DNA from: Prorocentrum cordatum
Lineage: Eukaryota > Sar > Dinophyceae > Prorocentrales > Prorocentraceae
NCBI GenBank assembly: GCA_963575745.1
Contig: CAUYUJ010016161.1
Coordinates: 50,489 to 114,488 of the forward strand
Length of the DNA stretch: 64,000 nt
Direction of reading: 5' to 3'
A program made the position numbers and the translations under genes. The stretch's first letter is position 1, and every line of letters begins with the position of its first letter. Below the pieces are notes generated by a model. It worked only from the letters and a program-made list of their open reading frames with translations, was not told the origin of the DNA and searched no databases. Shown here piece after piece: positions 12,501 through 53,600 of this stretch.

Positions 12501-15500
12501 ACCACAACGCACACACCACACACCACACAACACACAGCACACGCACACACAACACACAACAAACAGCACACACACCATACACACACACACACCACAACAC
12601 ACGCACACGCACACACGCACTCACATACACACACACACACGCACACGCACACGCATAAACGCACAAGCACACAAACACACACACAAACACACACACAAAC
12701 ACACAGACACGCAAACACGCAAACGCACACACACACACATTCACACACACACGCACACACACACACACACGCACGCACGCACGCACGCACTCACGCACGC
12801 ACACATAGACACACCACACACCACACACCACACTCCACACACCGCAGCATCTCCGCCTTTCCCTGGTAAACTGGTCGATGCCCTGGTAAACTGGTCATCC
12901 TGGCGCAACCAGGGAATGGACCAGTTTTCTGGTGTCTTTCTTGCGAATGTTTCGCACGGAGTCGCCCCGCAAAGTACCCAGAACAGATTGGTGGATTTGC
13001 GTGTAACCATTTGGGCCCCGAACAACAAGACATGCCGGGGAACGCTCCAGTCGGCGCGTGCGCACGCATTCGTGCTGCTGTTGTGTGCGTGTGTGTGTGC
13101 ATGCGTGTGTGCTGTGTGTGCAGTGTGCGTGCTATGTGCGTGCAGTGTGTGTGTGTTGAGTGTTTGCTGTATGTGCGGTGTGTGTGTGTGTGCGTGGTGT
13201 GTACGGTGTGTGTGTGTGTGTCTTTTGTGGTGTGCGCGGGGTGTGCGGTGTCCGCTGTGTGCGCGGCGTGTGCAGTGTGTGTGGCGCGGTGCGGCGCGCG
13301 CGGTGGTGCCGTGCTGCACGGTGCACCTTATGACGTTCTCTATAGCATTGCCTTGGACGTGCCTGGGGGGGGCCTCCCAGGGAATCCTAGGAATCCCGAG
13401 GGATCCGGCCAATCGCCCGATTCCTGAGAGGGCCTCCTAGGGAATCCCGTGCGGCGCGCGCGCGGTAGCACCGTGCTGTATGGTGCACCTTATAGTGTTC
13501 TATATAGCATTGCTTTTGATTGAGGTACCAGGGGGGGCTTCCCTCCTAGGGGATCCGAGGAATCCCTAGGGATCCCACCAATCGCCGAATTCTTGAGAGG
13601 GCCTCTTAGGGAATCTTGAGAATTCCTCGGTATCCGACGAATTCCCAGATGGCCTCTGAAGGACTCGCAGGAATTCCACGGGATCCCACCAATTCCCAGA
13701 TTCCTGGGAGGGCCTCCCAGGGAAGCCTCGGGATCCTCAGGGATCCGACCACTTCCCAGATTCCTGGGAGAGCCTCCGGGGAATCCTCGGAATTCCTGGG
13801 GATCCGAACAATTGCCAGATTCCTGAGATGGCCTTTTAGGGAATCCTCAGAATTGCGAGGGATCCTACCAATTCCCAAATTCCTGGGAGGACCCCCTGGG
13901 GAATCCTTAGAATTGCTCGGTATCCGACCAACTGCCAGATTCCTCAGAAGGCCTCTGAAGGACTCTTTGGAATTCCAAGTGATCCCACCAATTCTCCGAT
14001 TCCTGGGAGGGCATCCTACGGACCCCTAGGGATTCCGAGGGATCCCACACATTACCAGATTCCAGAGAGGGCCTCTTAAGTAATCTGAAGATTTCTCATG
14101 AATCCGACCGACTCCCAGATTCCTGGGGGGGCGTCGTAGGAATCCGAAGGATCGCGATGTAGCTGACGACGGAGGACCGCAAGCCTTTGCCATCCGAGGA
14201 TGGCGACTGTTCCCCCCAGAGGGACGCAAATCCCCGGTGGACTACGTCGAACAGACAGTTGCCGTCACCAGGGACGGCTCCACGGCAACGAATCGCCCCG
14301 GGCCCGTCCTCCAAGCGGGGAGCAATGGTTTCGCCGCCTCGCGAGCGTCTGCGTGGCCCCAGAAGCCCGGCGGCACCAAAAAACACTTGTCTTCGGGACG
14401 CCCAAGAAGCCATTCGGGAGGCCCACAAGGCTTTTCGGGAGGCCCCAGACGCCTCTCGGGAGGCCCAAGGCACTTCTCGGGAAGCCCAAGGCGCCTCTCG
14501 GGAGGCCCAAGACGCCTCTCGGAAGGCCCAAGACGCTTCTCGGGAGCCCCAAGACGCCTCTCGCGAGGCCCAAGACGCTTCTCGGGAGGCCCAAGACGCC
14601 TTCCGGGAGGCCCAAGAGAACTTCTCCAGAGGCATCTGGATAACTACTCTGGAACTCGCGCCGGGGAATGGATCAGTTCACCGGGAGACACCCAGCTTAC
14701 AGGGAAAAGGAATTCTTTCCACACTATACACACCACACACCACGCGCCTCACATCACACACGCACACACACACACACACAGCACACACCACGCACGCCAC
14801 GCACATCATACACACACTTTCTTGCGCCGGCGGCTAGGCAGATTGACTGCGCTGGCGGAAAGCATCAGTAGGGCATGCGAACACACACACGCACACACAC
14901 ACACACGCACACACACAAACACTCTCACACACACACCGCAGCACACACACAAACACACGCACACACACACACCGCAGCAGCACACACACCGCAGCACACA
15001 CACAGCGCAACACACAGCGCAGCACACACACACACACACACACCGCAGCACACACAGCACACATAACACACACAGACACACACAGACACACACAGACACA
15101 CACACACACACACATACAAACACACACACACACACACACGCGCGCACGCCAAACTGCGCGTGCAGTGGTGAGATGCCTTGTGATGTGTTGTTGTGTGCTG
15201 TTGTGATGTGTTACGATGGCCTCGCGTGCAAGGACACGCGCAGTTTCTTTGTGTCGTGGAGTGATGTGACGCGCAGTGCCCGCGTAGCCGTTTCTGGCAG
15301 CTTTCGGATCCCCCGGACACGCTCGCGCACGCTCGCGCACAGCGCGGCTGTGATGCGCGGCGCTGCGTCGCGCTGTGCCGTGGCCGTGGCCGTTTGAGCG
15401 CTGCCTCGCGAGGCGTGCTCGCGCCTCTCGCTTCCCCCCTTCCCTCCCGCCCCTGTCCTCCCCTTTTCCTCCCCCCCTTCCTCCCCCTGCCCCCTTCTTC

Positions 15501-18500
15501 CCCCCCTTCCGCCTCCGTTTCCTGCTCTGCCTCGCCCTCCGCTCCCTTGTTGTCGTCGTCGTGAGGCAGATCAGGAAGAGTTCTAGTGGGGGCGCACCCA
15601 AAATGAAAACGGGCAAGGGCAAGGAATACGGAGAGCGCGGGCGCTGGAGTGGCCCCGAGCTTGCGACGGCAAGTCTGGCAAGATAGCCCCACTTTTTAAA
15701 CGAGATGCTGGATCGCAAGGTGGCAGCCGAGCGTCCGGCAGCTACCGCGCGGGCGCGAGGATCGGCGACCCCCCGCCGGCGGGTGCGAAAAAGTTCGAGG
15801 ATGTCGCCGAGGACATCTGTGAGGACCACGCGATGACGGACGCAGCGACGGCGGAGACCGGGACTCCTCTGGTGGTTGCAAGGTGCGGTTGGTCGGCGAG
15901 TGATTCCGAGAGGACCCTGGCCCTGCTCGCAGGGGAGAAGGCGATCAAGCGCGCGCTGAGCCATCTGATTCCGCCAGTGCCAACGGGGGGTCGCCGCCGA
16001 TCCATCGCGGCGCGGGCCGCGCGCGCCAGAACGCAAAGAGTTACGACACCCTGCGCGGTCAGAGGTGCGCTTCCCGTGCCTTGAGTCTCCGGCGCCGCGG
16101 CGAAGAAGACGGGCAGGACGGAGTGCGACACGGGCGAGAAAGCAGGCTTTTTCATCGGGGTGATTGGTCGGCTAGGCCACGGGCGGCGCCGACAGCGACG
16201 TCGGCGCGAAGTACCTGGGCGTGCAAGTTGGCGTCTGCCAGCCGCCGAACGTAGACGTTTACAGCATCGCGGACACAGGCTGCCGCGGGAGCGTGGCTGG
16301 ACCTGCCGGGCATGCCGCGGTCGAGAAAAGGCCCGCGAAGCTAGGTCCCATGCCCGTGGCAAGGGCTGTCGGCGAGAGCTTCAGGTTCGGTCGTGGCGAC
16401 ATGATTCGCGCTGCGATCGCCTACGTCTACCCGATGAGAGTCCGCGGCGAGATGAGCAAGCTCGACGCGGCCTACGTCGAACGCGATTGCCCTGGGTTGC
16501 TCAGCGGATCAGCCCCAGAGGACTGAGGCGGGCATCGCGACGGCGACCGACGAGATTCGCGCGGGTTCCGCGACGCGCCTTATCCAGGACCGCCTCGCGG
16601 TGCACCCCGTGCTGAAGGTCGACGAGCACGGCGCAACGGGAACCGCGCGCTGGGCGAGTTTCGGACCAGGAGCATTGACGTTGGCGACGAGGGCCAGGCG
16701 GAGGTCGCGGAGGACTGGGCCCTTTGCGGCGCGGAGGTCGTCGGCGCCTACGAGTGGAAGGCTGCGATTCGTCGGGTCGCTCGCGGGGCGCGGGAAGGGT
16801 TCGCCAAGCGCGTCGATGCGCTCTGCGGCGCCCAGGGCCACGTGTCCAATGCACAGAAGGTCCGCCCACTAAAAGCTCCAAGGCGCTCGGGGCTCCTGCA
16901 GATCTGCGCGCGGGCGCGAGTTTCATGCGCAAGTGGCCCGTGACAGAGGCTGGCGCGTCGCGGGCCCTGCGCTCTCGGAGGCGGGCGGGCCGCCGCCTGA
17001 GGGCCGGCGCCAGAAGGGGCCGCGGCGTGGGCGCGCGTCGAGAAGGTGGGCCCCGATGTCGTCGCGTTCGCATTCCCTTGCAAGTCCTGGCCTCGCGCGC
17101 CGCGCGCGAGTCGCAGCGCCGGGGGGCGGCGATCTCGGCCGCAGGAGATGCGGGCGCAGATCGAGACGTCATTCTGTTTCGCGGCCGGGGTTTCGACCGC
17201 CAGCGGCGGCGCGGGGGGCGCATCTCGCTCGGCGGCCGCGATCGGGATCTCGCGCGAAGGCGAGGCAGATCTAGGGGGCAGCGCGCAGCTGCAACGGAGG
17301 CGTCGCAAACGCGACTGCGCAGTTCGCGATGCTCAGAGACGGGCGACCACATCGAGCGGGGCGCGCGTTTGGCTTCCGAGGTCGGCCTTGGAACATGCAC
17401 GCCTGGTCATCCGGGGCGCGCGCAGCACTGCGAGTACTGCGGCAACTGCTCCAGGGGGTTACCCTGAGGGTCGGGCGTCAATCATTGTTTACTTTTCAGG
17501 GAAACAATGATTGACGGCGGACGAGGGTTATCTTTCGATGTGAAAGCGTTTACTGCGCCCCCTCCATGTGCATTTTCTCAGGCCCACAGATGAGGGGAAA
17601 CATTGGGCGCATTTTTGAGCAAAAGTGGCTAGGGGAGGAGACGGAGAGGGAAAGGAAGGGGAGGGAGGAGGAACAAGAAGCAGAGAGGAAGGCGTAGGGA
17701 GAAGGACGGGATTCGATTGCGAAGGCCAGACGTGGGTCAGAGTCCTCATGGATGCTTCTTGGGGTCTCTTCGTAGCGCTCTCGGGTGCTTCTCGGGGACA
17801 GTGTAAAAGGCCTCTTGGGAGCTTCGTGGGCCTCCGCCTCAGCCTGCCTCAGCCTCAGCCTGCATCAGCCTCAGCCTCAGCCTCAGCCTCAGCCTCAGCC
17901 TCAGCCTGCCTCAGCATCAGCCTGCCTCAGCCTCAGCCTCAGCCTGCTTCAGCCTCAGCCTCAGTCTGCCTTCAGCCTCGCCTCAGCCTCAGCCTGCCTC
18001 AGCCTCAGCCTGCATCAGCCTCAGCCTCAGCCTCAGCCTGCCTCAGCATCAGCCTGCCTCAGCCTCAGCCTCAGCCTGCCTCAGCCTCAGCCTCAGTCTG
18101 CTTCAGCCTCAGCCTCAGTCTGCCTTCAGCCTCGGCCTCAGCCTCAGCCTGCCTCAGCCTCAGCCTGCCTCGGCCGCAGCATCAGCCTGCCTCAGCATTC
18201 AAAATGTGGAATCTGGGAACAGAACACGAAGTGGCCTACAGTTGGCTCCGGGCATTCAAAATCATGCCCAGGAATGGAGTTCTGGGAACTCGAAGACCAC
18301 GAAGTGGCCTACAGTTGGCTCCGGGCATTCAAAATGTGGCCCGGGAATGAGTTCTGGGAACTCGAAGAGCACGAAGTGGCCTACAGTTGGCTCCGGGCAT
18401 CCAAAATGTGGCCCGGGAATGGAGTTCTGGGAAGTCGAAGAGCACGAAGTGGCCTACAGTTGGCTCCGGGCATTCAAATGTGGCCCGGGAATGGAGTTCT

Positions 18501-21500
18501 GGGAGTGCACCTGTTGGATCTCGAAGAAGCAGCCGAAGTGTGTGACTGTTGCATCCGGGTATTCAGAATGTGGCCTGGGAAGGAGTTCTGGGAGCACGAA
18601 GAGCACGAAGTGTGTGACTGTTGGTGAAAACGAGCCCGGCACCCTGCCGCCCGGCAACTCCCCAACACCTGCCCGGACCCCCCTGTGGAGTGATCTGTGA
18701 GCTCTTTTGAGTCAACTAGAAACCTATCAGTCTTCGCTGTTAGGTAAAAACCAAAAAAACCTCCAGTTCTTACTGTCCTCCCCCTTCCGCCTGTACTTTG
18801 GGGGCGACGACGACCGACGACGACGGCGACGGACGACGACGGCGGTGGACAACGACGACAGACGACGGCGCCGCGGCGATGGCGACGCACTTATCTCGCA
18901 TGGAGTTACGCCTCGTACAGCATCGCCAACAACGAGCAGCTAACAATAACAACACAAAACATATGATAATCCCCTTTCTTCTCTTCTTCACGCTTCTCTC
19001 TTCTACGTCCTGGGCACGACGGATATAAAAGGCCCAACCCCTGTCCCGCCCCCTCTCCTTCCCATGCAGACAAAGCAACAACCCCAAAAACAACAACATC
19101 AACAAGAGCAAAACTTATCTCGCATGGTGTTACGCCTCGTACAGCATCACCAACAGTGATCAGCAAGCCTGAACAACAAAATATGATACGCCTCGTACAG
19201 CATCACCATCAATGAAAAGCTAACTAGAACAACAACATATGATGAGATTCCCCCGTTTCTTCTCTTCTTCCCACTTCTCTCTTTGACGTCCTGGGCACGA
19301 CGGATATAAAAAGGCCCAACCCCTTCCCACCCCCTCTCCTCCAAGCAGCAGCCGCAACAGCCGCAACAACATCAACAACAATAGCAACAACAACGCAACA
19401 GCAACAACAGCAACATAAACAGCAACAGCAACAACATCAACCAAACAACACGACGGCGACGGCGACGGCAACGGACTGATCTCGCAACGTGTGAGGTCTC
19501 CTTCGCTAGAACAGCATCGCCAACAGTAGGCAGCTAGCAAGGACAACCTATTACATACCAGAATCCCCATCTCGTCTCTTCTTCCCACTTCTCTCTTTCA
19601 CGTCCTGGGCATGACGGATATAAAGGGCCCAACCCCTTCCCACCCCTCTCCGCCCTCATGTGTATGTAGATGTTCGAGCTCTTTACGACGTATCGCCGAC
19701 ACTGAGCAGCTAGGACAATATAATACATAACATAATCCCCCACTCTTCCCTTCATCCCACTTCTCTCTTTTACGTCCTGGGCACGACGGATATAAAAGGC
19801 CCAGACGGCGACGGCCTTGGCAACGGACTGATCTCGCAAGGTGTCACGCCTCGTTCGCCAGAACAACATCGCCAACAATGAGCAGCTAACAAAACAACAT
19901 ACTATATAATAGCGCCTCCCTTCTTCCCACTTCTATTATTTACGTCCTGGGCACGACGGATATAAAAGGCCCAATCCCATCCCACCCCTTCTCCTTCCCC
20001 GTGTGCACGTATATGCTCGAGCTATCTTTGCCAACACTGAGCAGCTAACAAGGACTTCCGTCCCCCTCTCTTCCCTTCTTCCAATTGCTTGTTTTCACGT
20101 CCTGGGCACGACGGATGTAAAAGGCCCTCCTCTCCATTCAGACACAACAACAACAACAACAACAACAACAATCACAGCAACAACAACAACAACAACCACA
20201 ACAAAAACATCAGCAAAAACAACAACAATAACAACAACAACAACAACAGCAACAACCTCAACAACAACGACAACAACAACCACAACAACAACCGCGACAG
20301 CAGCAGCAACAACAACACAAGCAACAGCAACAACACCACCATCACCGACACCAGCAACGACAACAACAACAACAACAACAACAACAACAGCGACAATAAC
20401 CAACCAACCACAGCAACAGCAACAGTAACAGCAACAGCAGCAGCACCAACACCTGTACAAAGGACCCGACTCCTCCAACATCCATAAGCAGCATGCATCA
20501 ACGGTACCGCCACCACTAACAAAACAACAGCAACGGCAGCGCTAGGAATCGCAACACCAGCAACACACAACAGCCATTTTGGCCCGAGGCGATCCTTCAC
20601 CGACACTCTCAGCCCCAGGGCGCACGACCGTCGAGTGCACAGAGATGAGCCGCAAACGTGGCCCAGAGTCGACTAGCCCTGCTGAGAAGAAGGCCAAGAT
20701 CGACAAGGTATCCGAGCTCTTGCGGTCGCCTGATGTGGCTGACAGCATCCTCATGCATGCATGCCAGGGCCTGTACAAGCCGAAGTTGCAGGAGCTCTGG
20801 GACGGCGCCAACAAGCCGCGCTCCGAGTTCTTGGCCTTCATGAAGAAGCGCGAGGCTTGGAGGCGCAAAGGCTCCAAGTCCAGCCTCGGCGACGGCACCG
20901 ACTCAGAGGAGCTGGCCGCCGCCGCCCTGAAAGTGAAGCCCGAGCCAGCGCCGTTGCCCTTGCCCGAGGCCGACTACGATTTCGAGAAGAAAGTTGCCCG
21001 CGTTGTCATGAACGGCAAGAAGCTGGAGACGACCGACCTGATTCCTAAGACCGTCGGCCGTGGCGAATCGTCAGAAGTCCTTGCCTTGTTCGAGTACGGC
21101 GACCAGAAGTATGCGTACAAGGTCATCGGCATATGGTGGGGTCTTATCACGAGTTCGGGCGCCTCATCATCTGCAGGGCCGCCACCACTTCGAGAGCTTC
21201 CGCGGGCGGCAGGTGGCAAGAAGCCGCAGCGCCGCATCGTGGGCGACTGGGTCGCCCCAACATTCACCACAACAATCGCTTCCTCCTCCTCTGGCCACCG
21301 GAGGAGGAGGAGGAGGAGGAAGAGAAAGAGGAGGAGGAGGAGGGAGGAGGAGGAGGAGGAGGAGAGGGAGGAAAGGAGGAGGAGGAGGAGGAGGAGGGAG
21401 AAGGAGGAGGAGGAGGACAGGGAGGAGGAGGAATAAGAGGAGGAGAAGAGGGAGAAAGAGAGAGATAAAGAAAACGAGAGAAGAAAGCAGAGGGAGTAGG

Positions 21501-24500
21501 GAGAAGGGCAGGTAGGGGGGAGCTACCGCGTCAGGCAAGCTCAAGCTCACGAAGGGTGCGAACAAGGCTGCATCCCAGTCCTGCTCTTCACCTCCTCCCC
21601 CTCCCTCCTCAGCGCCCTCCTCCTGCTCCTGCTCCTGCTCCTCTTCTTCCTTCTCCTCCTTGCTCCTCCTCCTCCCCTCCTCCTCCTCCTCCTCCTCCTC
21701 CCTCCTCCCTCCTCCCTCCTCCCTCCTCCCCTCCTCCTCCCTCCTCCTCCTCCTCCTCCTCTTCCTCCTCCTCCTCCTGCTCCTCCTCCTCCTCCTCCTC
21801 CTCCTAGCCCCCCGCTTCCATCATTTCAGGCCGCGAAGGTCGCCGACTCCGACGCCCAGGCCTCGAAGGTTGCCGACTCCGACGCCCTGGCCTCGAAGGT
21901 TGCCGACTCCGACCTGCAGGCCTCGAAGGTCGCCGACTCCGACCTGGAGGCCTCGAAGGTTGCCAACTCCGACGCCCAGGCCGCGAAGGTAGCCGACTCC
22001 GACGCCCCGCATGCCTCGAAGGCTGCCGACTCGAACGCCCAGGCCTCGAAGGTCGCCGACTCCGACCTGCACGCCTCGAAGGTTGCCGACTCCGACCTGG
22101 AGGCCTCGAAGGTCGCCGACTCCGAACTGCAGGCCTCGCAGGTAGCCGACTCCGACGCCCAGGCCGCGAAGGTCGCCGACTCCGACGGCCAGGCCGCGAA
22201 GGTCGCCGACTCCGACGCCCCCGACGGCGCCTCCGACAGCAAAGCCGAGGTCGGGGCCGAGCAGGCCCCCCCACGACACTTTCAACCCTCCAAGCCCCCA
22301 ACCCCCCCACCCACCCCACTCCACCCTCTGGAGACCTCCAACCCTCCAGCCCTCCAACCCTCCAACCCGGCAGCCCTCCAACCTTCCGCCCCTCCAACCC
22401 CCCAGAGCCCCGACCCTCCAACCCTGCAGCCCTCCACCCATGTAACCCTGCAACCCTCCAACCCTCCTCGAACGCAGGGGCAATAGGGTGAAAGATACGG
22501 TTGGCCCCATCTGGGGCCTTAAGGGCTCCTTTAAGGGCCCTCGCGGGCCCGTTCAGGGCCCTCACGGGCCCATTTAGGGCCCTTCTCCTGCAGCATCGAG
22601 TCCCTTGCGTTTACCCCGTGCGCTGCCAACCGCCCTCGTCCTTGTCGTCGTCGGCCAGGCGGCCGACGGCGGCGCGCCCGCGCCGACTGGCGACGGCTCG
22701 GACGCTGGCGTTGACGCGCTCGCGAAGGAGGCGGAGGAGGCAAAGGAGGCGACGCCGAAGGACGTATAGGGGTTGGGGTTATAGGGTTGGGGGTTCGGCT
22801 CAAGGCTTGCGGCGCTTCAAGGCTTGGGCCGCCTCATAAACCCTGACCGTGGCCCCTACCCCTAACCCTAACCGCAACCCCTAACCCGAGCCCCCAGCCC
22901 CTAACTCGAACCCCTGACCCTATGTTGCCCGAGTGCCCGATCCAGATCTAGATCTACGATCGGGGCGAAGGGAGTAAATCACGTTGTCAAGACGCACGTC
23001 AATTTCCAAGCGAGCGCTACGTGAAACCACAGGACGTTGTCCAGTAGTGGCTCACGTAGCGCTCGCTTGGGAATGGATGTGCGCCTTGAAAACTGGACGT
23101 CGGGCCCCTGGGAATTGAGCACACGGCGTGGCCAAGGAATCTAGATCCCTCCATGGGCAACGGAATCGGTCCATATCCACTGCCCTAGGCCTGGCCCATG
23201 CTGGGCCCAGAAGCGGCGTATAGGCATCCCTGGCCAAGCCAGGAGGGCGTAGTCCTCGGCCCAGAAGGGCAAGGCCTGGGCAGTGGATATGGATAGATCC
23301 CGTCGCCTGATTCGCCAAGGAGTTGGCTGCCGAGCGCCACGAGGAGCTGGTGCGCATCGGCGCGGAGCTCTGCTACAGGGATGGCCCCCTGACGATTCGC
23401 TACGAGCCGCGCTCGTCCAAGGTCCACGGCTGGCTCGCGACTCGGCACGGGCTCGTGGCGAGGCTCGCTGGCCACGGGAACCCGTCGTTCCCGATGAAGT
23501 TCCCAGCAGATGGTCGCGAGGGCTCGGACGCCGAGTTCGTTGCCGCGTACAAGGAGGCCTTCACGACGGCCCTGGACTGGGCGGACGACGTCCAGAACAA
23601 CAAGGGCAAGTGGCGCAAGGGCGCCAAGACTGGCGCGTGGGAGCGCCTCGATCCGTGAGCACGTGTTTCGTTTGCGAGTGCCAACCTGTGGCACCTCGCC
23701 CCTCGAGCTCAGTGCCCTCGCGCTGGGTTCGGGGACGGCCGCTTCGAGGCCCCGAAAGTCGGGGAACATGAAGGAAAAGGGAAGGAAGCTGACACGGCAT
23801 ATGACGTTTGTAGAGCGGAGGCGCTGAGTCGCAACTTGAAAAAAAACATTGGCTATGAGGATGTACCTTTTTTTAAGTTAAAGCTCAACGCGTCCACTCG
23901 ACGAACACCAATGCACTATGCCCGTCTCGTTTCCCGCTTCCTCTGTTTCTCTGACTCCCGATGGGACGAGTCTAACCCCCTCCCGTGCTCGCCTCGAGGC
24001 TGTCGCGGCTAGATGCTCGCCGAAGCAGTTCGGCGTGGAGCGTGGCGCACCATGAGGAGGAGGAAGAGGAGGAGGAGGAGGCAGATGGGATGGTCGACGG
24101 GGGGAGGCAGGGGACGGGGAACGGGAGGAGGAGAAGAGGGAGGATGCGGAAGGGAGGAGGAGGAAGCTGATAACAGGATGAGGGGGAGAGGAGCGCCTGT
24201 CTCGAACAAGTCAGTGTTAGAATGCACGGAATACCCCAACGACGGGGCGTTGGTCTCAGCATTGGGTTATGCTGCCATCCCGCGCTCGGATTGAACAGTT
24301 GCCTCCTGCCCGAGGCGGGACATCGAGGCATTGCGGCCGAGGAAAACACGTGGGCTCGGAAGCCCAAGAGGGCTTCCGACGCGACAAAATGGCTGGTGTG
24401 TTTCAGCCACTTTGTCGCGGAATTGTATGGAGCTGTCCTGAGCCATCTTGGAACTGTCTAGGGCTGCTGCTGGGCCCCCCAATGATGTTGCGGGCCCAAC

Positions 24501-27428
24501 GCGTCCGCTCAACAAAAACAAATGCCCCGTGCCCGTATCGTCCCCTCAATACTCGTGTTCTCTGCGGGGGTCATCTCTGGGGCCGCTGAGGCCCTGAGCC
24601 TCTGGGGCCCTCAGGGCACGATGTTGCGTCGCGGGGCTCGGGGCCAAAACTATCTATAGAATTATCTATGGAATGCTGTAGATAGTTTTACATAAGGGTT
24701 TTAGTTATAAAATTATCTATAGAATTATCTATGGCAGGTCCTGTAGATAATTTTGGCCCCCTCCTCGGCCAACTTCAACCTCCTCCTCCTCTCCGCAGCC
24801 GTTTTGGCATCGAAGTTGCCTGCAGCACGCGTTGTTCTGTCGAGCTCACTTGTCACCTGACGCGACTCGCGCCTTCGGGGATGACTCAGACGTTGCTCGA
24901 TTCGTGGAACGCCAAGTTCGATCAGCTCACCGAGGCAATCGCCACTGGCACCTACCGCTGCGACACCGAGAGCGACACGGATGCCAGTACATCGGTTGGT
25001 TCCTCTCGCCTGCAGGCTCGCGGCAAGGGTCGCCCTCGCGGGCGCGGGCGCAAGCCCCTCACGCCCGTCAAGGAGGAGCGGCCCGCCGACGCCGAGGATG
25101 GCACGTCCACAGTTCCCGCTGGTGATGGGGAGCTGCATGCGGCGGGCGTGTCGGAGCAGACGCTGGAGGAACCGCAACGGGCCGCTGTCGGCGGTGCCCC
25201 AGCTCAGATCTTCGGCACGCCACCTCGCCGCGCGGGCACCGCAGACGACCTTCAGGGTCCTTCGCCATCCGAGGGGTCGTCGAAGAAGGTTGGCGTTGAG
25301 CAGACGCCCGAGCACCTCTTGCGCACTAGTGATGCAGGCGAGGCTGCGGCGTCTGACGGGGGGGGCCTGCCTGAGCAGGCCGCTGCTCCTGCTGCTCCCG
25401 AGGCTGCCCCCGAAGCCCCCGAGGCTGCTGCAGCTGCTGGAGCCGAGGCTGCCCCCGAGGCTGCTGTTCCTGAGGCTGCTCCCGAAGCCCTGGAGGCTGC
25501 TGCAGCTGCTGGAGCCGAGGCTGCCCCCGAGGCTGCTGCTCCCGAGGCTGCTGCTCCCGAAGCCCAGGGTGCTGCATCGGCCGAGGCTGCCCCCGATGCC
25601 CCAGGCGAGGCTGCTGCTCGTGACGGCGCCGCTGATGGCGACGATGATGACTCGGACTCGGACTCGGACTCGGACTCAGACTCTGTCCCCATCAAGGTCG
25701 ATGCAGCAACGTCGCGCATGGCGAAGCAGATGGAGGCGACCGCCAAGGCTAAGCTGGCTGCCGAAAAGGCGAGGGATGCAGCGAAGAGCGCAAGGGCTAA
25801 ACAGACTGCCATGCAGGCTAAGTCAAAAGAAGATAAGGCACAGATCAAGGAGCTCAAGCAGAAGATGAAGGAGCAGGCTGGGGAGATCAAGGACCTCAGC
25901 CAGAAGATGTCGAAGTATCGGTACGCCAATCCGAACTCGAACTTCAGCGAGTTGTGGGCGGAGACAAAGGGCCTCCCTCCTGTGGAGCAGCTCATCTCGC
26001 AGATCAAGCTGCAGGACTTCTACCTGAAGAACATATGCAAATCGACGCGTCGCATCACCTTCACGAAGACGCAGGAGCACGCGGACTCCAAGGTTCAGGC
26101 GACCCTCAGCTACTGGGAGATGTGCACCAAGATGAACCTATCGCCGAGGGATGAGAACATCCAGCAGGAGATCGACCTCGCCGTGAAGATGGGCTGGGTC
26201 AAGCAGAAGAAGGCTTCGAAGGCTACGATCAAACAAGCAGATGATCTGGGGCTGCCAGCTGCTGCGGGCTACGTCTACATTGTTTGCTCTTCCTGCTCCA
26301 CAACTTCTCTGAAGAAGGCCAGGACTGACACGTGCGAGGAGGAGGCAGAGCTGGACGCAGAGCAGCGCGATGACATGAGGCGCGAGCTGTTCCCCATGAA
26401 GGCTGCTAAGGCCAAGCCCAAGGCGCGCGCCAGGAAGACCAAGGACGAGAAGAAGGGCAACGCCGCCGAGAAGGCCAACGGCGACGGGGCCGCGGGCTCC
26501 GAGCAGGTCGACAGCACCGGTGGCAATGCCGTGACGGACGGCGCCGCGCCTGAGCCCTTATAAGGGGCCGCAGGAGCGAGCGTGGCCGCAGGGCAACTTT
26601 TTTACCTGTATATCATCTGTCCTCCCTCCCTCCTCCCAGCTTTTCGGCCTGAATGCCCATAGCTTTGGCGCGTGTCCAGGCGACGCGGACTCGTGGCTGC
26701 GCAGTTGCCTATTCGAGTTGATTTTGCTTGAGTTTGAGCGACGCCGTTCGGGCCATCTAGCAGCACGGCAATATACATGCATCGGTCACAGCTGGGTCAG
26801 ACATGGAGCGTGCGGTTTGCTCCAGGAGCCAGTTGGGATCAGCCGTTCTTTCTGCCCGAGCGCGAAGATAATGCAAGCCCCCCTTGCTCTCTCTCTCTCT
26901 CTCTGGAGCACAGAGACAGCAACAACCGCATCGTGCAGCATCGCCTCGTACAGCATCGCCAACAATGAGCAGCGAACAAAGACAACATAATACATAATGT
27001 CATACCCCGAGCTTGTTACGACAGATCGCCAACACTGAGCAGCTAACAAGGTCAACATAATACATGAGATAGCTGCTCTACCTTTCCTTATTCTCAGCTC
27101 TCTCTCTCTCTCCCTTTCTCTCTTTTACGTCCTGGGCACGACGGATATAAAGGGCCCAACTCCTTCCCAGCCCCTCTCCTCCCCCCATCAGACAAGCAGC
27201 AGCAACAACAACAAGCTTCTTACGACAGATCGCCAACACTGAGCAGCTAACAAGGTCAACATAACACATGAGATAATCCCCCTCCCTTCCCTTCTTCTCA
27301 GATCTCTCTTTTACGTCCTGGGCACGACGGATATAAAAGGCCCAACCCCTTTCCCAGCCCCTCTCCTCCCCCCCATCAGACAAGCGACAACAGCAACAAC
27401 AACAACAACATCAACAACACCAACAACC

Positions 27429-27463
<35 letters not shown>

Positions 27464-30400
27464 AACACCATCAACAACACCGACGACGACAACAACAGCA
27501 ACATAAACAACAAGCAACTGCAATGGCAGAATATAACCAACAACAAGAACAATTTAATAACACCAATGATCCGCAAGTAACGCAAACATGAGCCACCGCA
27601 TGTTTACTACTTCCTCCCTCCACCGAGCAAGGCAGCAGCAGCGATAACGGAAAGCAGGAGCAATACCATAGATAAGCATCAACAACTAAAGCACAACAGC
27701 ATCCTGCAACAAGACAGGCATAACGCACCGCATGTACACTACCCCTACCAACAAGCGCAAACGCAAACTGAAACAAACCAACAACATGCATATCCGTAGC
27801 CTGTTTTGCGCTCAAGCTCCTCAGCTTGGAATTGCGGGCTGCAGTCGAAGTCCCGATGCCATCGAAGCTTGAGCTGGAGTTGTACAGCCTCTTTGCCAAA
27901 GGGGTTCTCTCAGGGGCGGCCGTGCAGAAGCTGGCCTCAGCAGCGTGGGAGGACGGCTGGGGCTGGAAAAGCGCAGCTGTGGCGTGCCGTTTGAGGGATG
28001 CATCCAACCTGCAGGATTGTCTCACGGCGGTCAGCTTCTCTTTCCAGCTTGGGCACTGGGGCCCGTTGGGGTCAGCGGATGCCCTGCGATCAGCTGGCAC
28101 AGACGGCCGTTGGCAATCAAACATCCAGAGGGACATCCTGGCCGCTGCCGAGAGATTCGGCATCGTGGATTCTCTACCCAAAGAATATTATGCAGACACT
28201 CGGGGCCCTGATAACACGGTTGTCAAGCACGCTTTTTTTCTGCCGCACGAGACAGTCCATCACTACAGGACAAGCTTCCAGGAAGCAGCTCTCACGGAGG
28301 AGCAGATTGGAAGCACGCCAGTGGGCAGGTTGATCCAGAGCTGGTGCGCGCACCCAGACGTCGGCGTCGCGCCCCATCTGGCGACCTCGGTGTCGCCGCT
28401 CGGGCTGCATGGTGATGGAGTTCAGTACACGACGACCATGAGGGCAGGTGGGGCAAAGTCCGTGACTGCAGTGTCATTCAACCTGCTCGCTGGATCGGCT
28501 GCCATTAGAAAGAAGCGTTTTTATGATTTGCGTGCTGGCCAAGGAAGGAGGGATTCAAGAAACGAATGCGCATGCGTGTTCCCCGTGTATCGGGGGGTTC
28601 TCCTTCTCTTCCTCCTCCTCCTCCTCCTCCTCCTCCTCCTCCTTCTCCCCTCTCATCATCATCATCATCATCAGCAGCAGCATCATCATCATCAGCATCG
28701 CCATCATCATCACCATCATCATCATCAGCATCATCATCAACAGCAACATCATCAGCGTCAACATCAGCATCAGCATCATCATCATCACCATCATCATACT
28801 CTACCTCTTCCTCCACCTCCTCCATTAAATCCGCCTCCCCGTTCCCCCCTCAAGCGAAGTGTCATATGCGTATTTGTTTCGCGAAACACTTCTTTGTAGG
28901 ACTCGATGTGCGCGTGCGGTTGTGAAGGTTTTCACACGCTGCAAGACGTGTTCTCTGTCGTCGCTTGGTCGATGCAGCACCTCAGGGGGCGTGGGGCCCC
29001 CGATCGACGCCATGACGGCCAGCCTTGGAGTGCTTGGGACGCTCGACACCGACTGGCGCCAAATACTGAATTGCCTCTTGCTGGGATCGTGCAGATTCGT
29101 GGCGATTGGGATTGGATGTCCCAAGCATACCGCTTTCGACGGCCAGGTCAAGAATGTTTTTGTTGGAAATGCAACGTTACCAAAGAGCAATACAGGCGAG
29201 AATTCCGCAGGGATGCTCCGCACAGGAGCGCGCTTCGTACTCATCAGAGTTTCATGATGGAGGTGGCAGCTGGGGGTTTGGAGCTGAGCACCATCTTCAG
29301 GTGCCCTGGATTGCTACTGGATCACTTTGCCGTGGATCAGATGCACGCGGGCGAACTGGGGCCCCTCCTGGACGCGATAGGCTCGCTGTTCTGGGTGGAG
29401 ATAAGCAACAAACGGTGGCATCGGAATCAAAAGCTTGGTTTGAAGAGTACCAATCAGGACCTCAACGCTTACTTTCGCTCCAATCCCCGCCTGACTCCTA
29501 TTGTTCTTAGTCTGTCACAAATCAGGTCCAAGAATTCACCGTACCCCGTGCTGAAAAGCAAGGCTTCCCAAGCCAAGCACTTGTGCAGATTCTGTCTGGC
29601 ATTGGCCCATCGGCAGGCTGGCCACCAAGGCCGAGAGCCATTCGATTGGAGGAGGCCTGGCCATCGCTTGTATGGCCGCGGGCCCAGGTACTGTGAATTG
29701 ATTGTGAGGTTGTTTTCCGCCGTCGTCGAATATTATACCGCTTGCGACAGCCCGAACTTCGACGCGCAAAGGTGCATTCAACCTATGTATGACTTTTTGC
29801 AGACCCTAGTTGATTTGAACGACCTCTGGTGCACGGGACTGCCCGCAGCCGAACACAAAAACATGCCTTTTCACTGTAGGCAGAAAATGCACCTGCTGCA
29901 GCATTTAGTCGAGGATCAGTTGAGTTTGTTCGGGCCGCCAAAGGATTTCTCTTGCTATTTAGATGAAGCGTTTATAGGAGTTCTGAAGCTCATTTGCGGG
30001 CGGTCGAAACACCCCAAGACGTTAGAAAACGTGGCGATGAGCAAGGTCCGCTTGTCTGCAGGGGTCGAGGCCTCTCGAGATTGGGAGGACTGAGCCCATG
30101 GAAAAATCGAAGCCCAGACATGCTTCGCAGAGCCTGATTTGGATGGAGTGCCGAAGGGCCCCTTCACAGGCAAAATCGTCTTGTTTCACCCTGCTCGCGC
30201 GCCGTCTGGCGCAAGGCTCCTGACCTGACCTGACCTCCCTTGGCCTCCAGGAGCACTTCGAAGAAGGCCCCAACTGGAAAAATCAAAGGGCCCCAAGACG
30301 GCCCAGGAGGCCCCCAAGACGGCTCCAAGAGGGTGCCCAGACGAGGGACCAAAACGGACATTTCGAGCCCTCGGCCCCGAGAGGCTCACAGGAGGAACCA

Positions 30401-33400
30401 CAAGGCCCCCAGGGAAGCACCCAAAAGTCAGAGGTCCTAAGAGGCCCCCAAGAGGCACCCAGGAAGCCCCGAGAGGCCCCCAAGAGGCCCCCAAGAGGCC
30501 CCCAAGAGGCCCGAGGCTGAAGGCAGGCTGAGGCTGAGGCTGAAGCAGGCTGAGGCTGAGGCTGAGGCAGGCTGAGGCTGAGGCTGAGGCTGAGGCAGGC
30601 TGATGCTGAGGCAGGCTGAGGCTGAGGCTGAGGCTGATGCAGGCTGAGGCTGAGGCAGGCTGAGGCTGAGGCCGAGGCTGAAGGCAGACTGAGGCTGAGG
30701 CTGAGCAGGCTGAGGCTGAGGCTGAGGCTGAGGCTGAGGCAGGCTGAGGCTGAGGCTGAGGCAGGCTGAGGCTGAGGCTGATGCTGCAGGCTGAGGGCTG
30801 GCAGGCTGAGGCTGAGGCTGAGGCCGAGGCTGAAGGGACTGAGGCTGAGGCTGAGGCAGGCTGAGGCTGAGGCTGAGGCTGAGGCTGCAGGCTGAGGCTG
30901 AGGCTGAGGCTGATGCAGGCTGAGGCTGAGGCAGGCTGAGGCTGAGGCAGACTGAGGCTGGCTGAGGCTGAGGCTGAGGCTGAGGGCTGAGGCTGAGGCT
31001 GCAGGCTGAGGCTGAGGCTGAGGCTGATGCAGGCTGAGGCTGAGGCTGAGGCTGAAGGCAGACTGAGGCTGAGGCTGAAGCAGGCTGAGGCTGAGGCTGA
31101 GGAGGCTGAGGCTGAGGCTGAGGCTGCAGGCTGAGGCTGAGGCGCTGAGGAGGCCGAGGCTGCAGGCAGACTGAGGCTGAGGCTGAAGCAGGCTGAGGCT
31201 GAGGCTGAGGAGGCAGGCTGAGGCTGAGGCTGAGGCAGGCTGATGCTGAGGCAGGCTGAGGCTGAGGCTGAGGCTGATGCAGGCTGAGGCTGAGGCAGGC
31301 TGAGGCTGAGGCCGAGGCCGACGGCAGACTGAGGCTGAGGCTGAAGCAGGCTGAGGCTGAGGCAGAGGCAGGCTGAGGCTGAGGCTGAGGCAGGCTGATG
31401 CTGAGGCAGGCTGAGGCTGAGGCTGAGGCTGATGCAGGCTGAGGCTGAGGCAGGCTGAGGCTGAGGCCGAGGCTGAAGGCAGACTGAGGCTGAGGCTGAA
31501 GCAGGCTGAGGCTGAGGCTGAGGCAGGCTGAGGCTGAGGCTGAGAGCTGCTGACTGCTGACTGCGACGTTGCCGCTGCGACTGTCATCGCGAATGCGACT
31601 ACGACTGCGAGAACAGCAGAATTCTACAACTGGATTCTCATCCGAATCTTAAGGGGAATGCTTCCAGATATGCTCCTACACATCGATGTTAGGTTGCTTT
31701 GCCGGGATAATTTGAATCACGCGCCGACACGTCGCCTTGGTAAACATTTACTTCGCTGCGTGACCGGACGCCGGATATTCAATGTCGCGCGACCGGGCGC
31801 CGGCGGGGGTAAACATTTTTTCTCCGCGTGACCGGCGTCAATCATTGTTTCCCTGAAAAGTAAACAATGATTGACGCCCGACCCTCAGGGTATCAGCGAA
31901 CTTGATCGCGGGCTTCGACGTGCATTTGCCGGACTCGCTGCCTTGCGAATCGGACGGGCCCGCGCCCTGGGCCAGAGCGCGGCGTCTACGCGGCGGCTCG
32001 CGACGCCGAGCAGCTGCCCGCGGACAGGCGCCCCCGCGGCCTGATGCGAAACGCGCTCGACGTCGCCGAGCGCCAGAAGCCGGGCGGGGCCTGGGTCGAG
32101 AAGCGCCGGGCCGACGAGCTGGAGGACCGGCGCCGGCCGCGACGGAAAATCCAGAAGGACGACGACGAAACTCCCCAGACAGCTGGGGCCCTTGCGTTCG
32201 CGCAGTTTTCAAGACAAGCGGGCGAGTGTTTCGCGACGAGGTCGCGGAGCTAACGGCGCCTGTTCCTGTTCCCGCGCCTCCACTGCGCCGCCCTCCAACA
32301 CCTTCTCGACCCGACCGCGACGCGGCTGAGACCCCCGGGCCCCCCGCGCGGCCGATGCCGCGACCTCGAACTCCAGCGGTGGAGGCGCCCGAAATGATGC
32401 CCCCGCCATCGGCGCGATCGCCGATTCCGACATCGGCGGAAGCAGCGGAGACGCCGCCGCGCTCGCCCGGACCTGGGAGACAAGGTATTTTGACCATGAA
32501 GACCGACCTGGAGGCACGGGGAGGCAGGGAGCCAACGACCAAAGAAACGCCGCGAGCACCGACGCCGGCGACGACCATACACAGATATAGCGACATCCTG
32601 CCCCGACGAACCCCTCTACGAGAAGAGGGGCTATCGGACGCAGATGCGACGAAGAGACCCCCCGGCAGGAGGTCCGCCCCGCGCCCGAAGAGTTGCGCGA
32701 CCAGGGGGGGGGGCCCCGCGTGGGCTGCGAGCAGCTGGCAGGGCCCCACAGGAGTCGAATGCGCGACAAGCAGAGTCAGATGGGAGTAAAGGCCTCCGAT
32801 GGCCTGCCCCACCCGGACAGGAACATCTAGGAGACGCCCTGCTGGGGGCTGGACGTTCCGACCGACGTGGACCTCGAGGATCGAGAGACTGTCTGGCGCG
32901 ATGCTGAGTTCTTTCCAATCGTACCCACGCTGGGCGGCTTCGTCATGCAGCAGGCATTTTCGGCGATGGAGGAGACCGCGACGCCTGCCAAGAAGGACGC
33001 GCAAATTATTCAGTACGTCAAGAACGACGTCAGGATGGCTCACATAGATATTGGACACTGTGGGTGCGAGCACTTTCTCGCCGGCGCACGGCATGGGCCA
33101 AGCGTTGGAACTGCCCCCCGGGCGAGAAGCGAGCGGCTCCCAGGGCCGTGCGACTGGCGTCAGTGCCGAGACCGCCGCTGAGGTTCAATGCGACCGTCGG
33201 CTTTAACTTCCGAGTGGAGTGAGACACCGGCGGCGCTTCTTTAATGTTTCTCGACAGTATCGATCGCGGCGCGAAATTCTCTCAATGCGAGTTCATGGAG
33301 GGCAGGACTTCTCAGGCAGCGGCGGAGGCATTCTTCGCTACTTGGAGCAAGTGCGCAGGCGTGCCCGACGCGGCAACGCGCTACCTGGGCGGTGGGTTCT

Positions 33401-39400: not shown

Positions 39401-41504
39401 ATCCATGAAGTTTTTTTTTTGTTTGACAGCTCTTAAACGGCTGCGCGCGTAAATAAGGACAGAGCCACCCTGTGAAAGCGGACCGTACTCTATCCGTCAA
39501 ACGTTGGCAGACTTTTAAGACGGATGCGCGCGGCGCTAGGGAACAACATTTTGAAGGCGACCCGCCCTCAATCCGTGAAGGTGCTGCAAATTTTGGGCGT
39601 CAGGATCATCAGTGTAGAAGACGTACCAGGCGAAGCGCACGGCCCGCCGTTCCGACCAGCCTCGGGGTGCGATAGGGAGGAATTGTTTTCAAGGAGAAGG
39701 AATGGAGGAGGGGGAGGAGGAAGAGGAGGAGGAGGAGGAGGAGGAGGAGGAGGAGGGCGAGGAGGAGGAGGGCGAGGGAGGAGGAGGAGGAGGGAGAAGG
39801 AGGAGGAGGAGGAGGAGGAGGAGGAGGAGGAGGAGACGGGTGGAATTAGTTAGTAGGAGAACGACAGGAGGAGGAGCGGGAAAAGCGGGCGAGGAGGAGG
39901 TCTGGAAGCGAGGCTTTGGCGCGACGGTGCACGCAAGACTGCGCCATCAGGCCGTAGGGAGGGTCCCACAGATCCCCCGCGGCGGAACTCGAGGCTGCGC
40001 CCTGGGTGCACTCGGTCGGAGGCCTCGGTGGGTGGCAGCTGGGAGGGGAGGCGAACGCCAGCGCGGAAAGCCAGTCAGCGCGTTGTTTCTTCATGGCTGT
40101 CCGAATGCTCAGTGGTTCTCCAGCAGTGGCACGCTGGTGGCCTCCTCACGGTGGCGTGCTTGGCATCGCTCGGACGTGTGCATGTTTTCTCGGCGGGGAC
40201 CATCGGGGACCATCCTGGACCAGCGGGCAAACGAAAACACGCACGAAACCGAAGCACGCAGGGGAAATAGACGTCCGAGCGACGGCAAGCGTGTCCGTGG
40301 TGCTGTTTCTGCCCACCTCTACCCCAGAAAGCGACGAACATGTCGTGTCGTGTACATTCGGTCGGAGCTTCGGGGAATGACAGCGAGGTGAACTTGGCCA
40401 GGAATTCGCGTTTGCTTTCAGCTCGTGTCGTGCGTTCGGGCGTGGCGACGCTGAGTGAGGGCGACGATGTGCCGGCGCAGCTAAAACCAAGCTGTGGAAA
40501 CAAGGTCTCCGTGTGTCTCGCGGTGTCTCGCCGTTGCTGTCTCGTGGACGTCCCGTGGTTGTCCCGCAGGCACTGCAAATCGGAACGCACACCACATGGC
40601 AATCGACAATTTGCACATCGAGATGAACATCGAAATGCAGGCCCGATTGCCATCGAACTTCCAAGTGAAATGCCCATCGAAATGATCGTCACCAGACAAA
40701 TCGACATGGGGATCGACATGCACGTCGAACTGCACACCTATATGCAAGGTACTCACCAGTTGCATTGTCCGTATCATCTAAAGGGTGGTATATGCTCTAT
40801 AGTCGCGCGTGGGTGACCAGTCGTGGCGAGCTGACGCGCCGCCTGTCCACGCACGCGAAACAGAAAGTGTATGTTTCCCCGGTCTTCGAAACACCAGATG
40901 TACGTGTGTTGAGGTCTGCCTTGTGACGCATTCAATGTGGGTGAAGCTTAGGCATGCTTGTTGAGCTGACTGCGCGTCTGCAGCTGCAGAGCCACGTGCG
41001 CTGTACATGCATCACGGATCGAGCTGCTGAGGACCGCCCTGGAGCATTCATATCTGCTGGGGCCACGGTCCTCCACCTCCTCCGCCTCCTCCTCCTCCTC
41101 CTCCCCCTCTTCCCTCCTCCTCCTCCTCCTCCTCCTCCTCCTCCTCCTCCTCCTCCTCCTCCTCCTCCTCCCCCTCCCCCCTCCCCCTTCTCGCAGCCTG
41201 GGAGGAGCGCGCCTGTGTCCTGCAGCAGATCCAGGCGCTGAAGGAGGAGGAGGCCGAGCACTACCGGCAGAAGCAGGAGGCGGCGAAGCGCCTCGTGGCC
41301 GAGGCGCCCCGGGTCGGGAAGCGAGGCCCACCCCCGCCCCAGGCCGCCCGCGGCGCGTCGCGGGGGGGCGGGGGCGGGGGCGGAGGAGGAGGAGGAGGAG
41401 NNNNNNNNNNNNNNNNNNNNNNNNNNNNNNNNNNNNNNNNNNNNNNNNNNNNNNNNNNNNNNNNNNNNNNNNNNNNNNNNNNNNNNNNNNNNNNNNNNNN
41501 ATGG

Positions 41505-50600: not shown

Positions 50601-53600
50601 CAAAAACGACTCAGGATGGGAAACCGGTCCTGGGGAATGGGTCGAGGCTTCCCAGGGACCCCGCGCTGAAAAAGTCACGACGTCGGATCTCTGGGCCTGG
50701 CGAACTCTGTGCGCACGGTGGTCCACGGCCGCCGGTGGAGACCACCGCGTGATAGAGCTGCGGCGGCGCGCACGGCAGCTCCAGATGCTCCCCGGCCTGG
50801 CCTGGTCACGATGATCTCAGCCTGAAAAGCGAGTTTTGCCCTGCTCTTCCACCTCCTCCTCCTCCTCCTCCTTCTCCTCCTCCTTCTCCTTACAACTACA
50901 AATTACAACTACAAACTACGTTTGCACTGAAATCGAGCAAATTACAGCTTCGCGCTCCGGGACCGGCTCCGCCGTGCTGTCGCGCGCACGGCCGTGAGAG
51001 CAAGAAGTGAGCGTGTGCGCTTGTGTGTGTGTGGTGACTGTTGGCGTTCGCCTTCCAAATGCGCGTACCGTTTCCTGCACCCCCTGGCTTTTCTGCCCGT
51101 GTACCGCCTACGTGTGGTCCTCAGGCGTTTGGAGACCTGCTACGCTGCTTCACGATCAAGCCAATTAGCTTTGAGGGCTACCCGGACCCACTGGCGCGTC
51201 GGAGAAACAAATGCGCGCTTGTGTCTGTGTGTGTGTGCGTGCGTGCGTGCGTGCGTGCGTGCGTGTGTGCGTGTGCGCGTGCGCGCGTGTGTGTGCGTGT
51301 GTGTGCGTGTGCGTGTGTGTGCGTGTGTGTGTGTGTGTGTTTGTGTGTGTGTGTGCGTGTGTGCGTGTGTGCGTGTGTGCGTGTGTGCGTGTGTGTTCGT
51401 GTGCCGCGTGTGTGCGTGTGTGTGTGTGTGCCTGTGTGCGTGTGTGCGTGTGTGCGTGTGTGTGCGTGTGCGCGCGTGTGTGCGTGTGTGTGTGTGTGTG
51501 CGTGTGTGCGTGTGTGCGTGTGTGCGTGTGTGCGTGTGTGTGTGTGTGTGTGCGTGTGTGTTTGCCCATCGGGCAGCGGGCGGTGATCGGCAAAGACCCC
51601 TGCCTTTGAACGGCCGGTCCCACATCTTCCGCATGCACGCGTGTTCTCACCACCCACCAAATCACCCCAACCCAACCCGGAGGCGCAGATTAACCCTCGA
51701 TTTCTAGTGGGGGGGGATCGGGAAGCATCGAAAACACACGCGTGGAACCCTTACCCCCCCCCCAACCCGAAATTCGGGTCTTCGGGTTGGGTTGGGGTGG
51801 TCTGGTAGGTAGTCGTGTTCTGCCTGCGGCTGCCACCATCCAGTCCGCCCATCTGCCACGCCGGGTGGAAGTTCGCCTGAGCGCGTCCAGGCTCCGCGCC
51901 TCGCGGCGGTGCCGTCGGCTCTCCGCTGGCGGAGCCGCGCGTGCGTGCCACCCGCTCGGCAGTCTCCCTGCCCCTGGTCTGCCCTGCGTTTCCGCTGCAC
52001 GGTGCACGCTGTCTTTTTGTTTCTCTTGTGCTCGCCCAGCGCAGCCATCGCCATTGTTCTGCACGCGACCTGCGGCGCGCTGTCCACCTATGTCTCACGC
52101 CAGGGGGCATCGACGCTGAGCGCGGCCCGCCCCAGCAGCCCGCCGTGGTGACGTCACTCGGCCGCCTGAGGAACAAAGATGTGGCGCCCTGTGTTGTGTC
52201 GACCTTGGCCGGAAGTCCATGGCGGCGACGGCTGGGAACCATCAGCGGCCCGCAGAAAGCTCGGAACCACGGCGGTGGCGGCGGCCGGACGCCCTCGTTG
52301 CCGAAGGGGCGCCTCCTCGCAACAAGCCCCGAGTGGTGCCGCCGTCTCTGTCAAGCAGTGGCGAAGCGTCCTGGCTCGCCTATTGGCCCACCAAACAGTG
52401 TTCTAACAGTGCTTGTGGTTTGCACGAAATGTTCTTAGAACATTTCTGGCTGAGTCTGCTTTGTTTTAACGCATCGGGCTTGTGTTCTAAGAACAGTGTT
52501 TTTGTTATTCGAACATTTCTGGGTTCTAAGAACAGATCGTGGTAGGGCTATAGAAATGCCGGGACGGTCGGTCCCTGCTCAACTCTGGGGAGTGGCGCAG
52601 TCGTGACGGGCGCCCCCTGGGCGAAGCGCAGTGCGCCGGCGCCCGTGCCCTCCGCAGGTGAACGCCGTGAACGCCGCGGCGACGAAGATCAAGGAGGACA
52701 GGATGCTCGCGGACCGGCTGGAGGAGGAGAAGATCGTGCAGTACAATCTGGACAGGGAGCGCCGCGAGAGGGAGGAGGAGGAGAGGAAGCGGGAGGCCGC
52801 GGCGGCCAAGGAGAGGGAGACGGCGCGGCTGCGCGGGCTGCAGGAGAAGGCTTAAGTCGGGCCTGTCCCTCCACAGTGGGGATATTCAATTTTTTGTTTA
52901 ATGAATTTGGGGAGTATGTTTAGTTTATATATATATATACACAAACAGCAAACGAAACAACAACAAAAAAACAGAAAAGTGAGTCTGTTTTGAGTCTTTT
53001 TTAGTTTTCGTCGAAAATCCCCCTGTAGGGGGACACGCCCGACTTCAGAGAAGGCGCAGGACAAGGCGTCCGAGCTGGACTCCCTGCAGGCCAAGCGGGC
53101 CGCGTTCGCGGCGGAGACCGCGCGGGGAGGGGGGAGGGGCGCCGGCCGCGTGCTCGCACCGCGGGCCCCGGCCAGGCCGCCCCCCCGCGCCCCCCCCGCC
53201 CCCCTGGGCCCAGGCAACTCGGCGGGCGGCGCGCGCCCGTGGCCGAGCCGCGGGAGGGTCGTGGAAGTCGACGAATGGAGGGGAAGCGTGCTGCCAAAGG
53301 AGTTCCAGAGGTCCCCAACATGGTTCAAGCATGCTTTAAATGTGTCAAGCACACGTCTGAAACGCTATTAGAACATGTTGTACACGTTTCAAACACATTT
53401 GTAAATCAATGATGGGACTGTTAGGGTGTACGTTGCCGTGGCATCCAGAAACGCGAGAGGGCCGGGGGGGAACGAGAAGGAGGGGGGTGGGAGAGGCACA
53501 CAGGTTCGGGCCTCGGCGCTCGGGGCTCGAGGGGCTTCCGTGGGTCCTCGTGGGCTCTCGGCGGCCTTCCGGCCTCGGGGGGGCCCTCCAGCAGCGCCGA

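Follow-up and report, generated by a model that had tools for sequence, protein, structure and literature searches.

What kind of element is the 14.4-kb unit with inverted ends that lies in a 64,000-nucleotide stretch of the genome of the dinoflagellate Prorocentrum cordatum, and what do its three genes do? The stretch, which we call the window, covers positions 50,489 to 114,488 of contig CAUYUJ010016161.1 in assembly GCA_963575745.1 (C15312:50489-114488 in our labels) and has a G+C content of 61%. Our genome searches covered the 4.13 Gb and 21,875 contigs of this assembly, and other copies and loci are named by contig label (C2670 and so on). We conclude that the element very probably belongs to a DNA transposon family that is present in few copies. 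Its gene C is best placed in the RAG1/Transib/CACTA (CMCT) clade of transposases, and it would move by cut-and-paste with two partners, the products of genes A and B. No description of this element was found in the open-access literature that we searched.

The ends of the element confirm the perfect 55-bp inverted repeats and the 14.4-kb length given in the initial annotation. The left terminal inverted repeat (TIR; 17462..17516, plus strand) begins with CCCTGAGGG and is supported by repeat, genome and copy comparisons. The right TIR (31836..31890, minus strand) is its perfect inverse, as found by repeat comparison and genome search. The termini are CCCTGAGGG..CCCTCAGGG, that is, CCC..GGG, and a 15-bp inverted repeat with an 11-bp spacer (CGTCAATCATTGTTT / AAACAATGATTGACG) closes the left TIR. 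Both sides carry a TA that repeat and copy comparisons identify as the target-site duplication (17460..17461 and 31891..31892). With these flanks the identical pair grows to 57 bp (17460-17516 / 31836-31892) and the span is 17460-31892; without the duplication the element measures 14,429 bp. TA duplications had been proposed from the window copy, where they do occur, but they are not general: the duplication is 2 bp long in all four copies with both ends, and the other three have CA, TG and GG. The target site is duplicated over 2 bp whose sequence varies, and TA-specificity is ruled out. The proposed host of the insertion, a split copia polyprotein, was not confirmed: none of eight open reading frames (ORFs) in the flanks has a Pfam match below E 0.07.

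The initial annotation had suggested a search for other copies with the 55-bp TIR. Allowing up to three mismatches, this search gave nine places in the assembly (none for a reversed-pattern control) and further bounded copies. Two of them, C2670 (12,393 bp) and C14498 (12,307 bp), are bounded by TIR pairs and have aligned segments 93–99% identical to the window copy. A fourth copy with both ends, C5655:13407-24406, has about 10 extra bases in one of its TIRs, and a deletion has taken away gene B together with the beginning of gene C. C14889 retains the right end with about 1.6 kb of interior, adjoining a gap of 100 N, and C17978 only 203 bp of the left end. Over 3,455 columns (five segments also present in C5655, with 44 gap columns dropped) there are 47 differences between the window copy and C2670, 84 between C5655 and the window copy, and 53 between C5655 and C2670. 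The family looks young and rare. Recent movement, which had been read from the perfect TIRs, is borne out for the family, since C2670 and C14498 are 99.2% identical (14 mismatches), but not for the window copy, with its inverted interior and frameshifted gene C.

What, then, does gene C encode? The gene lies on the plus strand and has two exons. ORF and copy comparisons place exon 1 at 27856..28560, with approximate borders and a frameshift near its 3′ end in the window copy. The intron (28600..28905, borders also approximate, from repeat and copy comparison) is rich in simple repeats, and exon 2 was placed by alignment at 28906..30093. Exon 2 contains a stop in C14498, and there is an open copy. 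In an alignment of 26 gene C relatives, counted over the rows that cover each position, the three catalytic residues of an Asp-Asp-Glu (DDE) transposase are invariant (23 of 23, 26 of 26 and 23 of 23). The same is true of two metal-binding-type motifs, C(2)C (26 of 26 at both positions) and H(3-4)H (24 of 24 at both), which stand in the right order between the second D and the E. In the window copy the first Asp codon is 28414-28416 in exon 1, and exon 2 holds the second Asp (29104-29106), C(2)C (29161-29172), H(3)H (29890-29904) and the Glu (29965-29967). Between C(2)C and H(3)H there is also a DxMH motif, whose His is invariant. The fold was predicted for a family member, P0002, which is 54% identical to exon 2 of the window copy. 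Its order of strands and helices fits an RNase-H-like fold, and a Foldseek search with the model ranked RAG1, BbRAGL and Transib highest, with a match that spans most of the protein (about RAG1 residues 470-1007). The transposases among the 50 fold matches listed are RAG1, BbRAGL, HzTransib, P element, ISCth4 and Hermes, with no others among them. The transposase-like nature of gene C, and the status of the element as a DNA transposon, stand on catalytic motifs and predicted fold together with TIRs, duplications and copies.

Profile searches, which the initial annotation had recommended for gene C, did not name the family, and the DDE assignment came from motifs and predicted fold instead. Exon 2 has no Pfam match at E up to 1, and single weak matches appeared in two of the 26 aligned members (best E 0.044) and in two of 10 further proteins. 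Against chains of the PDB, the alignment gave nothing beyond a 24-residue match (E 0.17). A scan of viral contigs gave 121 pattern matches, none of which was confirmed as a relative. Nor did gene C match a non-transposase family, the outcome that had been named as speaking against a transposase. DUF2946, the sole one of 19 families above its cut-off (E 6.5e-5, residues 263-340 of the exon 1 frame extended into the intron), was discounted because the match falls in a low-complexity part.

An alternative is that the element is Tc1/mariner- or Harbinger-like, with a TA duplication and two captured host genes. The TA on both sides of the window copy would fit, as would the failure of Pfam to name the transposase. 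We nevertheless reject it as extremely improbable, because the duplications are not TA-specific as in Tc1/mariner. The fold search result, the C(2)C and H(3)H motifs and the recurrence of genes A and B beside gene C relatives also speak against it.

Placement in the CMCT clade fits better. According to PMC12730594, members of this clade have an RNase-H-like fold that bears a DDE triad, together with C(2)C and H(3-4)H motifs, duplications of 2–5 bp and mostly 5′-CA..TG-3′ termini. Gene C has the triad and fold, and both motifs between the second D and the E, and the element makes a 2-bp duplication. The His of the DxMH motif may be the third His mentioned in the legend of Figure 4 of that paper. 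The paper also lists the termini CAC for EnSpm, TGT for PlavakaA and CATCA for PlavakaB, and a duplication of TA only for ESTA (PMC12730594). Our element shares the DDE residues, the two motifs and a duplication within 2–5 bp with these lineages and differs from each of them: from EnSpm/CACTA by CCC..GGG with 2 bp instead of CAC..GTG with 3 bp, from Plavaka by its termini (TGT..ACA with 2 bp in A, CATCA..TGATG with 2–3 bp in B), and from ESTA by copies flanked by CA, TG and GG instead of TA. It also differs from all three in lacking a Pfam transposase match and in carrying two recurring accessory genes without an assigned family. In wider use, EnSpm/CACTA duplications are given as 2–4 bp.

RAG1 is the enzyme behind vertebrate antibody diversity, and in RAG and ProtoRAG it has a partner, RAG2, which is a kelch protein. 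The likeness of gene C to RAG1, ProtoRAG (BbRAGL) and Transib consists of a predicted fold that agrees along most of its length, the DDE triad, C(2)C and H(3-4)H. It does not extend to a sequence match, and the 2-bp duplication and CCC..GGG termini set the element apart; the duplication of Transib and RAG is 5 bp. At the sequence level, none of the recognised parts of genes A and B has a kelch match in Pfam, which may be another difference from RAG/ProtoRAG.

Are genes A and B, then, part of the system? The initial annotation had counted three genes, which agrees with our three conserved coding blocks, all on the plus strand. Homologue comparison recognised two parts of gene A, the first at 20645..21115 (exon borders not fixed) and the last, with the stop, at 23311..23658. 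At C14703 both parts lie inside one stretch, which supports one gene. Gene B is a single ORF at 24881..26563, found as an ORF and by homologue comparison, with an RG-rich stretch, an acidic Ser/Asp tract, a Lys-rich stretch and a conserved C-terminal domain (25910-26335); three homologues share this layout. We read the RG-rich stretch as AT-hook-like.

The two genes had been regarded as unrelated to the transposase, a view that their recurrence beside gene C relatives contradicts. Exon 2 of gene C has at least 113 matches in the genome (105 of 3,691 first-look candidates scored), and eight loci have relatives at 62–67% identity, with the family's own four copies set aside. The C-terminal domain of gene B occurs at five loci (36–42% identity) beyond the window, C2670 and C14498, and all five lie upstream of one of these eight gene C relatives on the same strand. 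The last part of gene A occurs at nine further loci (38–75%), five of which are placed in the same way (C14703, C12303, C20587, C16538 and C14677). The full order A-B-C is found at C14703, C12303 and C20587. Seven of the eight loci have two or more of the three genes, and the eighth (C21571) lies 1.8 kb from a contig start. Between the window copy and C2670, the ratio of nonsynonymous to synonymous change (dN/dS) is 0.14 for exon 2 of gene C, 0.38 for gene B, and 0.35 and 0.62 for the first and last parts of gene A. With 9, 20, 11 and 3 changes, respectively, these values are only a weak sign of constraint.

It could be argued that the element picked up genes A and B from its host in a single transduplication and that they have no role in transposition. 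They have no known function: none of the 7,995 protein-database candidates scored for gene B was a homologue at E 1e-3 or better (the query is rich in low complexity), and in Pfam genes A and B and the gene B homologues gave weak low-complexity matches below cut-offs (RHINO 0.0012, Dehydrin 9e-4, ATG14 0.0015, Vps54_N 0.0069). Moreover, for four of the nine outside gene A loci the candidates scored include no relative of gene C. However, order and strand are kept at loci where gene C and gene B have diverged as far as given above. If the genes had been captured a single time, this must have happened before they diverged so far, and they would have had to be retained since, of which the dN/dS values of B and A are a weak sign. 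We therefore consider capture improbable and favor dedicated partners. The four gene A homologues (C20066:184659, 75%; C7649:44332, 45%; C18025:54835, 49%; C9924:283464, 38%) may belong to the host, stand alone or have diverged.

Several points besides those four loci weigh against our reading. An empty site could not be demonstrated for the window copy, since a genome search with its joined 300-base flanks gave no match other than the flanks themselves; the 14-mer put forward for this check gave 8 matches versus 7 in the control, which is chance level. The GG duplication of C5655 adjoins a G run, is the weakest of the four and could be due to chance. The CA..TG termini usual in the CMCT clade are absent, a feature that does not strictly define it. 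Gene C has no sequence-level match to a known transposase in Pfam or among PDB sequences, and the TM-scores of the RAG1 matches are modest (0.40–0.45, at about 10% identity). The CMCT placement thus depends on motifs, duplication length and the predicted fold of a relative. The related A-B-C loci are presumed transposons, for which comparisons did not bring out clear TIRs: at C16538 and C14677 the match in one orientation breaks off after about 0.5 kb of the compared stretch. Finally, the roles that we assign to A and B are guesses.

The mechanism that we infer comprises DNA binding, cut-and-paste chemistry and the roles of A and B. The gene C protein would most likely bind the 55-bp TIRs, in which the 15-bp motif occurs twice, inverted. 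It would then pair both ends and cut with the D-D-E triad of its RNase-H-like fold, and the freed element would be joined at a 2-bp staggered cut, leaving 2-bp duplications. The products of A and B would be dedicated partners of the transposase. Gene B, basic and AT-hook-like, most likely encodes an architectural DNA-binding protein that aids end assembly, and gene A could encode a regulator or a second end-binding factor. A precedent is En/Spm, a two-gene system of TNPA and TNPD, in which a transposase likewise works with an accessory protein encoded by the element. Our element differs in having two accessory genes, and in having repeated 30-bp modules upstream of genes A and C, not at both ends.

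These modules bear TATAAA (CGTCCTGGGCACGACGGATATAAAAGGCCC) and were located by motif search in the copies. Six lie upstream of gene A (19006..20127, plus strand) and two upstream of gene C (27128..27343, plus strand). The layout is alike in the window and C2670 copies, and C5655 retains six. Their position suggests that they act as promoters; alternatively, the A or B protein could bind to them.

Work on RAG1 and the transposons from which it arose has dealt mostly with animals. A transposase family with a RAG1 fold but no sequence match to RAG1, with this many matches in one protist genome and two recurring partner genes, widens the range for studying how partner-assisted transposon cutting evolved. 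Pfam does not recognise this class of genes, so repeat annotation may miss them. More tentatively, and with rather less than even confidence, we propose a superfamily-level RAG1-fold lineage in dinoflagellates, and perhaps in other algae, in which two dedicated accessory proteins join the transposase in a three-protein complex that pairs and cuts the ends, an independent counterpart of RAG1-RAG2. The hint of other algae comes from relatives in the protein database, mostly without a named source; one is a Pyramimonas protein, which could be contamination.

A more distant gene C family (27% identity, open frames of 680 aa) occurs at no fewer than eight loci (C19077:331743, C20765:1362806, C15044:655346, C18190:103529, C16693:85509, C15137:193370, C16775:55679 and C314:447878). 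The two that were compared, L060 and L061, are 98.6% identical over 5.7 kb, and their comparison showed no clear inverted end.

The window copy itself is rearranged. Its end regions (17462..17834 and 31711..31890, plus strand; element 1-373 and 14250-14429) share their orientation with other copies (C2670, C14498 and C5655 for the left one), and the interior between them (18746..30512, minus strand) is inverted relative to C2670, C14498, C5655 and, on the right side only, C14889. At the two joints lie extra segments that copy and repeat comparison did not find at these joints in the other copies. Segment X (17835..18746, plus strand; about 0.9 kb) holds a CAGCCT hexamer array (Tandem Repeats Finder, 17830-18196), 73-bp repeats (18221-18504) and a remainder. 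Segment Y (30513..31710, plus strand; about 1.2 kb) holds an AGGCTG array (30513-31549), inverted relative to the array in X, and a remainder. C5655 and C2670 share both interior joints; hence, by parsimony, the arrangement in the window is derived. A simple account would be an insertion between the left end and the interior, followed by an inversion with one break in the insertion and the other at the right-end joint. Inverted arrays of 0.37 and 1.04 kb around the interior could also have caused misjoins in the assembly, and the arrangement occurs in one of five copies (C14889 being seen at one joint). Yet a simple assembly flip would not create the extra sequence exclusive to this copy at exactly these joints, and we regard an artefact as rather doubtful. 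With a rearranged interior and a frameshift in gene C, the window copy could move only with the help of another copy. The inner part of its left end (17729-17830, query 268-369) resembles a dispersed repeat: 35 of 40 scored matches are limited to roughly this part.

Elsewhere in the window, a run of 100 N at 41401-41500 marks an assembly gap. A second inverted-end motif, GTCGGGCGTGTCCCCCTACAGGGGG, occurs with variants on both strands at 43226, 45124, 49730, 50027, 50324, 53035 and 56536, and the sites at 45124 and 53005-53043, separated by about 7.9 kb, match each other perfectly as inverted repeats of 39 bp. These repeats could be introner-like elements, and they have GTCGGGCGT in common with the TIR of the 14.4-kb element. 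A cluster of long inverted repeats (183–295 bp, 86–90% complementary) occupies 56639-58114.

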